From IMG/VR virus record IMGVR_UViG_3300028025_002488, positions 1 to 28,125 of that record: a stretch of DNA of 28,125 bases. The stretch is one strand, 5' to 3'. The notes under the pieces were generated by a model. It had not been told where the DNA came from. It did not search any database and worked only from the letters and a program-made list of their open reading frames with translations. How positions within the stretch are numbered: position 1 is the first letter of the stretch; every line of letters begins with the position of its first letter. Of the stretch, positions 9,305 through 24,457 are shown piece after piece. The translations under genes and the position numbers were made by a program. Source of the stretch: a virus.

Positions 9305-9418
9305 TTAATTCAGTTTTAAGCAATGTGGGCATATTGAGTGCTGCCTACCCATTGCGGTGATTGTATAGTATTTTCGACAACTACGGCATTTAATCCAGAA
9401 TGTTTTAATCATTTTCAT
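9305..9418 (-). CDS. 37-residue zinc-ribbon mini-protein
   Basis: Reading leftward from ATG at 9418 gives MKMIKTFWIKCRSCRKYYTI, then TAMGRQHSICPHCLKLN and TAA. Two Cys pairs (C11-x2-C14 and C31-x2-C34) spaced by 16 residues make a minimal zinc ribbon. The ATG overlaps the stop of the DnaA-like gene (ATGA), and the TAA touches the next ATG at 9304. The gene therefore fits exactly into an otherwise empty 110-base gap. Such ribbons often act as small transcription or DNA-binding modulators; the partner is unknown. Confidence 0.65.
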   Translation of the reverse strand: MKMIKTFWIKCRSCRKYYTITAMGRQHSICPHCLKLN

Positions 9419-9747
9419 AACCCAATGTTTTTCATATGCTGAATAATCTCATTGTCATTCTTGAGTGATATCTGATCTTCAACACCACGTAGCGCATGGA
9501 TTACTGTTGTGTGGTGCTTGATACCTGGGGCAAAGAATGCACCGATATCTTTCAGTTTCCAATGGCATCGGTAATACAAGTAATATGCCAATATAGAACG
9601 GATAACGACTATCCCCCTATCTCTTCTGCGGACACGTAAAGTCTTGATGTCGCAATTGAAATAGGTTAATACTCTTTGAATTACGTATTCGGATGTGTTC
9701 ATCCTTGCTGATTCACGGATGCCAGGTAGTACGTATGGACTTACCAT
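9415..9747 (-). CDS. Orphan DnaA domain-IV-like DNA-binding protein
   Basis: This 110-residue protein aligns with the C-terminal DNA-binding domain of DnaA. VIQRVLTYFNCDIKTLRVRR corresponds to the first helices, IRSILAYYLYYRCHWKLKDIGAFF to the basic-loop region and helix-turn-helix, and KHHTTVIHALRGVE to the DnaA signature (GGRDHTTVxHA). The AAA+ ATPase domain is absent. The two signature residues before HTT are KH instead of RD, so its target may differ from a standard DnaA box. Start 9747 overlaps the upstream micropeptide stop (ATGGTAA); ATG 9702 is an alternative. It could interfere with host initiation, initiate phage replication at 16546-16846, or regulate transcription. Confidence 0.75.
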   Translation of the reverse strand: MVSPYVLPGIRESARMNTSEYVIQRVLTYFNCDIKTLRVRRRDRGIVVIRSILAYYLYYRCHWKLKDIGAFFAPGIKHHTTVIHALRGVEDQISLKNDNEIIQHMKNIGL

Positions 9748-14295: not shown

Positions 14296-16545
14296 ATGAT
14301 AGAACAATATTATAACGATTACGCAGAGTTAGGGTTATTCCCCATTGGTGTTAATTGGGATGCAGAGAAGAAATCAACTTACCACCCAGTAGGATGGGAG
14401 AACGCAACGGAATTATTCCCCTTAAATAATACCCATAATGGATTAATGGTCAGAATTGATGATGACTATGGATGCCTTGACTTTGACCTAAAGAATACCC
14501 AAAATAAGGACATATTTAACCAATGGAAGGCAATCGTAATAAATACAATGCCTGATGTATATGATAAATTATACATTGAAGAAACACGAAATAAAGGGTA
14601 TCACGTTTGGTTTAAATACACAGGACTAACGCATAAAACAGGCATAGCCAAATCTGAGGAAGGTGCTGAAGTCATCGCAGTTTACTGCAAACGTAAACTG
14701 ATTTACACATACCCTACTCCAGGGTATTCTCTTTACCACCAATCAATGGAGGATGTTGGGTACCTGACATCAAAGGAATACCAATACTTAGTTGAGACAA
14801 GTCAGCTATTCAATGAGTATAAACCAAAATACGACCCAAATAAGAAGGCGGTAAATTACCCAATAGAACATCAAGATGTTCTGATGAAATTCGATAAAGT
14901 GCTATCTGATGAGAATTTTACTCAGATACTTAATGAGATAGGTCTTGAGCAAGTACATGATTTTAGGTACAAGCAGAAAGATTCGTTTGTGGCATTTAGA
15001 CGTAAAGGATCAGAGGCTTTATATTCTGCAAAAGTTTATTATAAAAGTAAAAGAATGATGCTATTTACGGCATCAATGCCAGAATACCCATCGTGGCACG
15101 ATAAAGAAGAATATAAAATATGGTCTCTTCCCCCATCGTTTATCTTGTTTTATAAGAATGATAGAGACTGGGATGCAACTGTTGAAGTATGCAAAATGAT
15201 ACTTGATGCTCAAGGCGAAGAATTACCAATAGTGGAAAATGAAATAAAATTTCCATTAGATGTATTTCCTAATGTTATAGCTAAATCAATCCTTGAAGTT
15301 TCAGAGGCAAGATCACTTGCTCCTCAATTTGTTGCCACGGCAGGACTTTGGACAATAAGCAGTTTAGCAGGAGATAGGTATTTTTCTGATTTCAATGGGG
15401 ATGGGAAAAACATACTTTTCTGCTTAATGATTGCTCCAGTCTCTGTTGGTAAAACTCCTGCTTATAAAGTAATGTGTGAAACACCACTAAAAAGAATACA
15501 AGAAGAAGGTGATAAAAAGTTTAACGAAGAATTAAAGGAATGGATATTAAAAAAGTCTAAATCACAAAAAGACAAACAATCTTTTGATGAGCCAAGACCA
15601 AAAAGATATATCCCAATAATTGTGGATGGTACTACTGAAGGCTATATAAGTAAATCTATGCACCAAAAAAATGGTATGGGTGTATACCAAGATGAAGCCG
15701 AAACTATTTTAAACGCAGGAGGTTACAAGAAAAGCAATGATTCAATATCATTCTTTACACAGGCTTTCTCTGGTGGCAGGATTACACAAATACGTGCAGA
15801 TGAAACACTTGAAAGGGTTGTACCTAACCTTAATTTAAACTTACTTATGGGTACTCAACCAAGCCGATTGAAAAATATATTTACTGATGATAGGCTTGAG
15901 AGCGGATTCGCATCAAGGTTTTTAATGGTTGATTCTGATTACATTTTATTGAATATTGATGAAGACCCATTCAGCCAAAAAAAGGAGATGTGTAGTGAAT
16001 GGGTTCAGATAGTTGAAGACTTGTATTCCATTGGTTATCAATACAATAACGATGTTTTAGTAAAGCAAAGGATTAGGATAACTGAGGAAGGTAAAAATGT
16101 TTTTAGGCATTACAATAAACAAATAAAAGGTGAGGCAAATAATCGAATAAAAAACAAATCAGAAGGATTTATCATGGGTACAGAGGCTAAAATGTCCGCA
16201 TACCTTCCAAGGCTTTGCCAAGTACTTGCAATTATGAATGATATAGTAAACCCAATAATTGATGATAAAACAGTACACAATGCATACAGATTGTACAGAT
16301 ACTATGCAGAAAACACAATTAGGATTATTGGTGGACTAATTAATGAAATTAACACAGGATTAAATAAAGAATCACAAAAACTTTATGATCTGCTGCCTGA
16401 TGAATTTACATCTAAACAAGCAAAAGAGATTTGTAAAATAAATAATTTACCAGAACGTAAGTTTGAAATTACAATGAAGAAAAAGGATTTCGCAAGTATG
16501 TTTAAACAAGAAGGAAGGGGTAAATTTAGCAAAATAGTGCCATAA
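14296..16545 (+). CDS. Bifunctional primase-helicase (AEP prim-pol plus DUF3987-like ATPase)
   Basis: This is a 749-residue protein. Residues ~1-170 look like an archaeo-eukaryotic primase/polymerase domain: IDDDYGCLDFDLKN with Asp62 and Asp64, NKGYHVWFKY with His103, and GAEVIAVYCKRKLIYTYP for the later metal/nucleotide strand. Residues ~315-720 resemble the DUF3987 ATPase: FPNVIAKSILEVSEARSLAP, Walker A APVSVGKT (380-387), QDEAETIL as probable Walker B, and a later RLESGFASRFLMVD arginine segment. Such fusions prime and unwind at phage origins. The gene sits directly upstream of the iteron region 16546-16846, its probable site of action. The domain order is clear; the exact helicase class is inferred. 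Confidence 0.8.
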   Translation: MIEQYYNDYAELGLFPIGVNWDAEKKSTYHPVGWENATELFPLNNTHNGLMVRIDDDYGCLDFDLKNTQNKDIFNQWKAIVINTMPDVYDKLYIEETRNKGYHVWFKYTGLTHKTGIAKSEEGAEVIAVYCKRKLIYTYPTPGYSLYHQSMEDVGYLTSKEYQYLVETSQLFNEYKPKYDPNKKAVNYPIEHQDVLMKFDKVLSDENFTQILNEIGLEQVHDFRYKQKDSFVAFRRKGSEALYSAKVYYKSKRMMLFTASMPEYPSWHDKEEYKIWSLPPSFILFYKNDRDWDATVEVCKMILDAQGEELPIVENEIKFPLDVFPNVIAKSILEVSEARSLAPQFVATAGLWTISSLAGDRYFSDFNGDGKNILFCLMIAPVSVGKTPAYKVMCETPLKRIQEEGDKKFNEELKEWILKKSKSQKDKQSFDEPRPKRYIPIIVDGTTEGYISKSMHQKNGMGVYQDEAETILNAGGYKKSNDSISFFTQAFSGGRITQIRADETLERVVPNLNLNLLMGTQPSRLKNIFTDDRLESGFASRFLMVDSDYILLNIDEDPFSQKKEMCSEWVQIVEDLYSIGYQYNNDVLVKQRIRITEEGKNVFRHYNKQIKGEANNRIKNKSEGFIMGTEAKMSAYLPRLCQVLAIMNDIVNPIIDDKTVHNAYRLYRYYAENTIRIIGGLINEINTGLNKESQKLYDLLPDEFTSKQAKEICKINNLPERKFEITMKKKDFASMFKQEGRGKFSKIVP

Positions 16546-16554
16546 ATGCCAAAG

Positions 16555-16649
16555 TTTTACACCATTTACACTAAGTTTACACCTATTTGGTGTAAAAGCA
16601 AACGCAGTCCCACATTGAGTTTGAGGCACTTTTACACCATTTACACTAA
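16555..16649 (+). repeat. 20-base direct repeat, left arm of the iteron region
   Basis: ttttacaccatttacactaa occurs exactly at 16555-16574 and 16630-16649. Between the copies, 16576-16596 forms an inverted repeat of two 8-mers around TATTT. Confidence 0.85.
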
Positions 16650-16740
16650 AATCTCTATTAATATATATTTATATATATATATATTATATACAAAAATGGT
16701 GTAAATGGTGTAAAACACGCTGAAACGCAGTCCCACATTG
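16600..16740 (+). repeat. 18-base direct repeat on both sides of the AT tract
   Basis: AAACGCAGTCCCACATTG occurs exactly at 16600-16617 and 16723-16740. It contains no iteron core, so it may be a second protein-binding site. Confidence 0.85.
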
Positions 16741-16760
16741 GTTTTCCTTTTACACTAACA

Positions 16761-16800
16761 TGGTGTAAATGTGGTGTAAATGGTGTAAATGCGGTGTAAA
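16761..16800 (+). repeat. Two 20-bp tandem iterons
   Basis: 16761-16780 and 16781-16800 are the same 20-bp unit (TGGTGTAAATG, then T or C, then GGTGTAAA) with a single T/C difference. The 20-bp period is close to two helical turns, so bound proteins would sit on one face of the DNA. Confidence 0.85.
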
Positions 16801-16833
16801 AAAAATATTTCGCCATAAATATCCAAATCTGAT

Positions 16834-16841
16834 TAATTTTG
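16834..16841 (+). promoter_or_regulatory. Possible -7 promoter element upstream of the packaging operon
   Basis: TAATTTTG fits TAnnTTTG and ends 5 bases before the ATG at 16847. If used, the transcript would be nearly leaderless. No -33 box is seen at the normal spacing. Confidence 0.3.
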
Positions 16842-16846
16842 TTTAA

Positions 16847-22954: not shown

Positions 22955-22991
22955 GGGGGAGGTGTTAAAGCCTTCCCCTATTTTTGTTTTT
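22955..22991 (+). terminator. Intrinsic terminator after the major capsid gene
   Basis: An 8-bp G/C-rich stem pairs 22955-22962 with 22971-22978 (one G-U pair), with an 8-base loop. The following T-run (tatttttgttttt, 22979-22991) ends exactly at the ATG of the methyltransferase gene. It should lower expression of everything downstream relative to the capsid protein. Confidence 0.75.
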
Positions 22992-23480
22992 ATGCCATAT
23001 TCATACGATTATTTTAAAGAAGAGTTTTTCCACCACATGAAATCTACTTTCCCTGTTGGAATGTATATTTTGGATGTAGGTGCAGGGTCTGGTCAGTATG
23101 GTAAAAATCTAAATAGTAAATTTGAGATTGATGCTCTTGAAATATTTAGACCATATGTTGAGGAGTTTGATTTAAAGTACGTTTATGATAATGTGATTAT
23201 AGGTGATATAAGGGAGTTTGATACTAAAGGATATGATTATGTAATCATGGGTGATATCTTGGAGCATTTGACATATGATGAAGCCACAGAGGTATTAAAT
23301 GGCATTAAATGTAAATATATGTTTGCCGTACCCTATAAAATGAAACAAGGCGAAGTAAATGGCAAAATACATGAAACGCACCACCAAGATGATTTGACAC
23401 ACGAATTGGTTTTGGAAAGATATAAAGGTGTTCGGTGTCTATTTAGGAATTTGGACTATGGCTATTATGTAAACTATTAA
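22992..23480 (+). CDS. SAM-dependent methyltransferase
   Basis: This 162-residue protein starts at ATG 22992. A frame-open upstream ATG at 22962 lies inside the terminator stem and is less likely. Motif I, YILDVGAGSGQYG (25-37), binds S-adenosylmethionine. EIDALE (45-50) supplies the acidic residue after strand 2, and YDYVIMGDILEHL (81-93) is motif IV/post-IV of class I methyltransferases. It is smaller than most stand-alone enzymes (about 200-250). The target is unknown. The glycosyltransferase gene follows after 2 bases, so both may modify the same sugar or capsid/tail glycan. Codon use is A/T-rich compared with the capsid gene. Confidence 0.8.
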   Translation: MPYSYDYFKEEFFHHMKSTFPVGMYILDVGAGSGQYGKNLNSKFEIDALEIFRPYVEEFDLKYVYDNVIIGDIREFDTKGYDYVIMGDILEHLTYDEATEVLNGIKCKYMFAVPYKMKQGEVNGKIHETHHQDDLTHELVLERYKGVRCLFRNLDYGYYVNY

Positions 23481-23482
23481 CT

Positions 23483-24457
23483 ATGAAAATACTTGCATCC
23501 ATTCATTTATATCCACCTCAACACAATTGTGGTGCAGAATATATGTTGCATGGAATACTAAAACACTTACAATCAGAAGGGCATCAGATTAAAGTATTAC
23601 TACATCAGGCGAATCATTATAAAATAACAAATAATTACGTTTTTGATGATATTGATGTATTCCCACCGAATACAAATGTCATTGATGGCTTAATGAGATG
23701 GTCAGATGTAGTATTTACCCACTTGGATTATACAAGATGGACAATTCACACCGCTAAACTATATCGGAAACCAGTATTTCACCTTATACATAATTCTCAT
23801 CCGTACCCTGAGATTATTGATGCTGAAAATAAGCAGCACATTATTTATAATTCTTTGTGGTTAAAAGACCTATTGAATTACAAATATCCTAATTTTGTAT
23901 TAACCCCTCCTTGCGATTATCGTTTCTACGATACTAATACTGACACTTCCAAGAATACTTTCATTACACTTATAAACTTAAACGAAAACAAAGGGGGGAA
24001 GGTCTTTGCAGATATTGCCCGTGCGATGCCACATAAACGATTTTTAGGTGTTCTTGGTTCTTATGATGAGCAAGTAACCGAAAATCTGCCAAATGTGGTA
24101 TATGTGAAAAATAGTCCGAATATACTTGATGCTTATAAGCAGACTCGTATTTTATTAATGCCTTCGGATTATGAGAGTTGGGGCAGAACGGCAACAGAGG
24201 CAATGTCAAGCGGTATTCCTGTGATTTGTACTGAGGCGGACGGTTTGAAGGAAAACTGCGGTAAGGCAGGTATATACATTAAAAACAGAACCAATGTTAA
24301 GGAATGGGTTAGACGAATTACTGAACTTGATGAAGAAAAAGCCTATCAAGGAGCATCAAGAAAAGCAAAAGCAAGGTCAAGAGAACATGATCCGAGAGAA
24401 GCACTCAACAACTTTAGCACTTGGTTCAAAGAAAAAGTACAACAATGGTATACATAA
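23483..24457 (+). CDS. GT4-type glycosyltransferase (GT-B fold)
   Basis: This is a 324-residue protein. The N-terminal Rossmann half begins MKILASIHLYPPQHNCGAEY with the Gly/Ala-Glu turn of the family. The C-terminal half has FITLINLNENKGGKVFADIA, then GVLGSY, and NILDAYKQTRILLMPSDYES with the E-x7-E motif (Glu231, Glu239) in ESWGRTATEAMSSGIPVICT. These residues bind the nucleotide-sugar. It would add a sugar to a protein, DNA base or glycan; the head-gene location favours a virion protein. It lies directly after the methyltransferase, and its last 13 bases overlap the connector gene, so it is well integrated. Confidence 0.85.
   Translation: MKILASIHLYPPQHNCGAEYMLHGILKHLQSEGHQIKVLLHQANHYKITNNYVFDDIDVFPPNTNVIDGLMRWSDVVFTHLDYTRWTIHTAKLYRKPVFHLIHNSHPYPEIIDAENKQHIIYNSLWLKDLLNYKYPNFVLTPPCDYRFYDTNTDTSKNTFITLINLNENKGGKVFADIARAMPHKRFLGVLGSYDEQVTENLPNVVYVKNSPNILDAYKQTRILLMPSDYESWGRTATEAMSSGIPVICTEADGLKENCGKAGIYIKNRTNVKEWVRRITELDEEKAYQGASRKAKARSREHDPREALNNFSTWFKEKVQQWYT

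Follow-up and report, generated by a model that had tools for sequence, protein, structure and literature searches.

The closest described parallel to the locus analysed here is offered by the SaPI Rep helicases, which use their C-terminal domain to recognise an iteron origin lying immediately 3' of rep, apparently as two hexamers (PMC7581432). In Gram-negative PICIs an A/T-rich region always stands between two sets of iterons at the origin, and the rep-ori unit drives plasmid replication (PMC6092414). The alpha protein of phage P4 is a fused primase and helicase with its own cognate origin, ori/crr (PMC7145576, PMC6092414), and the minimal replicon of pRN1 is reported to require a stretch of 166 bp lying 3' of its replication operon (PMC4234260). 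For DUF3987, the family to which the protein discussed below belongs, a helicase function had been no more than a prediction (PMC5862659).

The window, by which we mean the whole 28,125-base virus fragment from IMG/VR, holds an array of short repeats between the stop codon of a 749-aa rep gene (14296-16545) and a gene for a 68-aa protein, which is followed by the genes for the small and the large terminase subunits. We propose, with a probability of about 0.88, that this array is the replication origin of the phage and that the neighbouring DUF3987 Rep is its own initiator, predicted to bind through a C-terminal winged helix. By analogy, the best reading of its type would be a SaPI/PICI Rep-ori origin, bound by Rep itself and served by an MCM-like helicase. 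The features concerned are:

14296-16545, plus strand: rep, coding for the DUF3987 primase-helicase of 749 aa (Pfam DUF3987, E 3e-34; PHROG DNA helicase/primase), the proposed initiator.
16366-16533, plus strand: part of rep coding for the winged-helix domain (residues ~691-746), the proposed reader of the word, from models, winged-helix matches and co-variation.
16459-16476, plus strand: predicted Rep recognition helix, residues 722-727 (KFEITM), in which positions 724 and 725 follow the word most closely.
16546-16846, no strand: array region between the stop codon of rep and the gene that follows, putative replication origin.
16556-16646, minus strand: left arm, with words at 16556(-), 16565(-), 16576(-), 16590(+), 16631(-) and 16640(-).
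16600-16622, no strand: left copy of a second element, the imperfect palindrome AAACGCAGTCCCACATTGAGTTT.
16656-16690, no strand: A/T-only tract of 35 bases, putative unwinding element, with the mirror centre at 16672.5-16673.
16699-16800, plus strand: right arm, with words at 16699(+), 16708(+), 16749(-), 16763(+), 16774(+) and 16783(+) and an extra word at 16794(+).
16723-16745, no strand: right copy of the second element.
16834-16841, plus strand: TAATTTTG, a promoter-like element directly before the next start codon, fitting TAnnTTTG.

Our analysis confirms the array and finds it more regular than first described. The initial annotation had counted 13 copies of the repeated word, a number that holds for GTGTAAA, while only 10 of these have the exact form GGTGTAAA/TTTACACC and the other three read AGTGTAAA. 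Outside the array, the exact GGTGTAAA occurs at just two sites in the window (8466 and 18051), and in 5000 dinucleotide-keeping shuffles of the array region no GC-containing 7-mer exceeded five copies, against the 13 observed, which upholds the view that the array is not a product of chance. Words had been said to point mostly one way to the left of the A/T tract and mostly the other way to its right; this is so, with exceptions at 16590(+) and 16749(-), but a stricter mirror order had gone unnoticed. Reflected about 16672.5, the midpoint of the A/T tract, 12 of the 13 words fall exactly on a partner, and the two words that run against the simple polarity mirror each other; at most seven of the 13 were paired in any of 1000 random placements. 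Each arm comprises six words, with the extra word at 16794 standing at the right end, a number that would fit one hexamer per arm. The 35-base tract, an exact 20-base repeat in the left arm (16555-16574 and 16630-16649), a repeat flanking the tract at 16600 and 16723, and 20-bp tandem units at 16761-16780 and 16781-16800 (19/20 identical) had all been reported and were all recovered. GC skew, put forward earlier as a check on the origin, does not shift where the array lies, whether in the window or in four long relatives; it follows the coding strand throughout and is uninformative on the origin.

Each arm also carries one copy of the second element, which is distinct from the iteron word. Across the family this element was found in 10 of 31 arrays, at 15 sites (shuffles gave a mean of 2.8 and a maximum of 8), and the arrays that have it carry differing iteron words. 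It is thus a real feature, confined to part of the family, and could be bound by a second protein.

As in SaPIs and PICIs, the putative origin lies directly 3' of rep and has two iteron sets flanking an A/T-rich region. The Reps of those elements contain a DUF927 or D5/Primase_Cterm helicase, whereas DUF3987 was the sole match in all 30 Reps scanned from the phage family described here; because the helicase family differs, we do not class the locus as a SaPI replicon, although it would operate in the manner of one. Also unlike the SaPI/PICI case, Rep is found here in full phages with terminase genes, the array of the window is an exact mirror, and the word has switched many times along with changes in the recognition helix. 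P4 alpha shares the primase-helicase fusion with Rep, but its helicase family differs and P4 is a satellite. The origin-binding winged helix of P4 alpha lies at the C-terminus. ORF904 of Sulfolobus pRN1 has a prim-pol fold that matches Rep, although pRN1 is an archaeal plasmid. Iteron plasmids and DnaA/oriC systems resemble the array in that short words recur next to an A/T-rich unwinding region; those systems use Rep_3/RepA_N proteins or DnaA, whereas the predicted reader here is a primase-helicase, and the word is not a DnaA box.

In an AlphaFold2 model of full-length Rep (mean pLDDT 87), the N-terminal domain resembles a prim-pol, the middle forms an MCM-like AAA+ helicase and the chain ends in a winged helix; the last 125 residues reach a pLDDT of 90 when modelled alone. 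In Foldseek searches with the model, the N-terminus matched the pRN1 ORF904 prim-pol (1rni, 3m1m) and the middle matched MCM helicases, and winged-helix matches of the C-terminal model included BlaI, RuvB and MCM8, with modest scores (Z 5-7). The predicted architecture therefore has the features of the P4 alpha/pRN1 ORF904 kind: an AEP-like N-terminus, an AAA+ helicase and a C-terminal winged helix. Candidate prim-pol motif residues D62, D64 and H103 are invariant in 30 Reps. Searching solved structures with the Rep sequence gave no match, and tblastn of Rep against annotated phages returned just three matches, at 22% identity and unannotated.

Relatives were collected by searches with the 749-aa protein and with alignments of its relatives, giving about 100 distinct contigs. 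In most of these an array with inverted arms, centred on an A/T-rich core, lies beside a DUF3987 rep gene, so that the search for the array in relatives suggested at the outset found the arrangement conserved and the word itself different from one relative to another. Among the words are GTGTAAA, TGTAAA, TGTGTA, TGTACA, TGTATT, TGTTTC, TGCGAA and TGAGAA, as well as TGAACT/TGAACTT, TGCAAA, TGCAAT/TGCAATT, TGCTAAA, GGTAAAA and others, and repeats of the array type are present even in relatives with 26-30% identity (L093, L096). In 25 scored arrays, 181 of the 228 words point outward from the core, with an outward majority in 22 of the arrays. When the rigid spacing template of the window was laid on relatives, few arrays fitted better than random; family-wide, it is polarity and the central A/T core that are kept, with exact spacing variable. 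A clear array near rep was looked for and not located in the clade of L107-L112, L115 and L228. The array stands directly 3' of the initiator-helicase gene in the window and most relatives, and is displaced in L055, in L059, L061 and L097, and in L068, L070 and L077. In L055, L061, L068 and their relatives extra sequence, apparently a gene in L055, separates rep from the array.

In six contigs (L050, L076, L086, L117, L130 and L146), hairpins that resemble terminators and are accompanied by T runs lie between the stop codon of rep and the array, and would shut transcription out of the array. Elements of the TAnnTTTG type, which we take to be the Bacteroidota -7 promoter consensus and which TAATTTTG fits, stand 3' of the array in the window and also in many relatives. 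Together with two weak genome matches, the promoter-like element suggests that the host is probably a member of the Bacteroidota. The array could on this ground be mainly an operator, through which Rep or another regulator controls the promoter of the downstream genes, and repeated words could well serve as operators. We nevertheless regard this as improbable, since the downstream genes vary between relatives and since exact two-fold symmetry about an A/T tract, with a helicase-bearing reader, fits an origin better. A regulatory role at the promoter-like element (16834-16841) alongside the origin role is possible.

Between window positions 15300 and 17400, comparison with L011 reveals a mosaic exchange: L011 has different sequence in place of the 3' half of rep and of the array, shares the 68-aa gene at 91% DNA identity, and then carries a second replacement in the terS part. 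At the protein level, the RHH protein (96%), the 68-aa protein (94%) and TerL (98%) are nearly identical in the two phages and TerS differs. That TerS differs along with the array, and that the array lies just upstream of terS and terL in the window, would suit a cos/pac site, the alternative raised in the initial annotation, with the small terminase subunit binding it for packaging; judged on the window and L011 alone, TerS may be the reader of the words. We think it very unlikely: the array keeps to rep even though TerL lies anywhere between 0.74 and 6.1 kb from that gene, giving the array no fixed place beside terS and terL; the array-adjacent 89-aa protein, a candidate TerS, is 100% identical in phages with the words TGCGAA and TGAGAA; and the word tracks residues of Rep.

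The same comparisons bear on the choice of initiator. Three proteins had been put forward as readers of the origin (an orphan DnaA-domain-IV protein, the RHH protein and the 68-aa protein), in which case Rep would only be recruited, and a DnaA-domain-IV protein is indeed encoded in 31 fetched loci. Yet the RHH and 68-aa proteins are nearly unchanged in L011, where the array has been replaced, and identical 144-aa copies of the DnaA-domain-IV protein accompany TGCGAA in L015 and TGAGAA in L031, which is not what would be seen if domain IV read the words as it does at oriC. As the word follows Rep's own helix instead, an origin read by any of the three is highly improbable. Together, the results on the RHH, 68-aa, DnaA-domain-IV and 89-aa proteins and on the TerL distance argue against both the three proposed initiators and a packaging site. 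What stands of the earlier interpretation is that iterons beside an unwinding tract are best read as an origin, and that its initiator is probably not DnaA; the most likely initiator is the adjacent Rep.

The case for Rep comes chiefly from the residues that change with the word. We scanned all 764 columns of the Rep alignment over 75 close pairs with different words and 90 pairs with the same word, and the best trackers of a word switch were the columns of window residues 725, 724 and 721, which differ never or almost never in same-word pairs. In the model, the co-varying residues lie within or adjoining recognition helix 722-727. In the clade in which TGCGAA and TGAGAA alternate, 80 of 730 Rep positions are variable, and at just three of them the residues sort without exception according to the word; these three, 699 (L/F), 708 (D/N) and 710 (M/I), belong to the C-terminal domain. 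In the DNA of the same clade, the final ~1 kb of rep has 268 variable columns, of which four partition, at codons 672-710, and neither the last 60 bases of rep nor the inspected first ~120 bases downstream partition by word. Co-variation thus points to the Rep C-terminal domain as what sets origin specificity.

This co-inheritance is due in part to linkage, the 3' end of rep and the array being neighbours. In a tree of the Rep core, built with the C-terminal 75 residues removed, phages with different words are nearest neighbours with strong support (L066 and L076, L078 and L086), and the cores of L158 and L077, whose words differ, are 98.2% identical. In seven contigs the array is set apart from rep by other sequence (L055, L059, L061, L097, L068, L070 and L077), and the word that forms the densest cluster, 0.8-1 kb downstream, is still the one expected from the helix. 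For nine new contigs we recorded the word expected from the helix before looking at their DNA, and eight of these predictions were right; the eight include L200 and L222, where the predicted TGAACT takes the form of AAAGTTC variants as the most frequent 7-mers. In L200, L201 and L240 the nearest Rep core has a different word and the helix still predicted correctly; it is therefore the helix, not overall kinship, that predicts the word. The one miss was L246, whose helix, FDN, had not been met before; TGAAAA was predicted and CAG[TC]AAA found.

A universal code of one base per residue (FxD for TGC, FxN for TGA) holds in one subfamily and failed for L246. In the subgroup with F[ED]xx helices, which includes the window, there is no clean residue-to-base code. 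The association between helix and word is strong across the contigs compared, and a general code is not established.

Based on these data we can outline how replication might begin. The C-terminal winged helix of Rep would bind the repeated word (GGTGTAAA in the window) in the two mirror-image arms, thereby placing Rep assemblies, perhaps one hexamer per arm, to the left and right of the A/T tract, which would then melt. Two MCM-like helicase rings would load and leave in opposite directions, so that replication would be bidirectional, with priming by the prim-pol domain of Rep or by host enzymes. This would give the present family of DUF3987 phages, probably of Bacteroidota, a concrete origin and initiator, neither of which our literature search found, and would tie DUF3987, known as a family of predicted helicases, to origin recognition.

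We also lean towards the view that the origin of this family is recodable, in that the word and two or three recognition-helix residues have switched together repeatedly, making close relatives replication-incompatible. The Reps of co-switching phages are otherwise near-identical, up to 98%. If this is true, these phages would document, in natural material, the way in which an initiator and a dozen scattered binding sites can alter their specificity and stay functional, and the co-switching of word and residues would make the evolution of initiator specificity directly testable in natural pairs that differ at few positions. L016 (TGCGAA) and L021 (TGAGAA) form such a pair, their C-terminal domains departing from each other at residues 699, 708 and 710 and at few more.

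The orphan DnaA-domain-IV proteins, which lack the AAA+ part, are encoded on the opposite strand in the window (9415-9747) and in the 31 fetched loci. A search with this protein against annotated phages gave no match. In L036 the core of the copy has diverged and its C-terminus is kept, as if recombined. Elsewhere in the window, at 22962-24457, open reading frames that resemble a methyltransferase and a glycosyltransferase, judging from their translations, lie amid the head genes.
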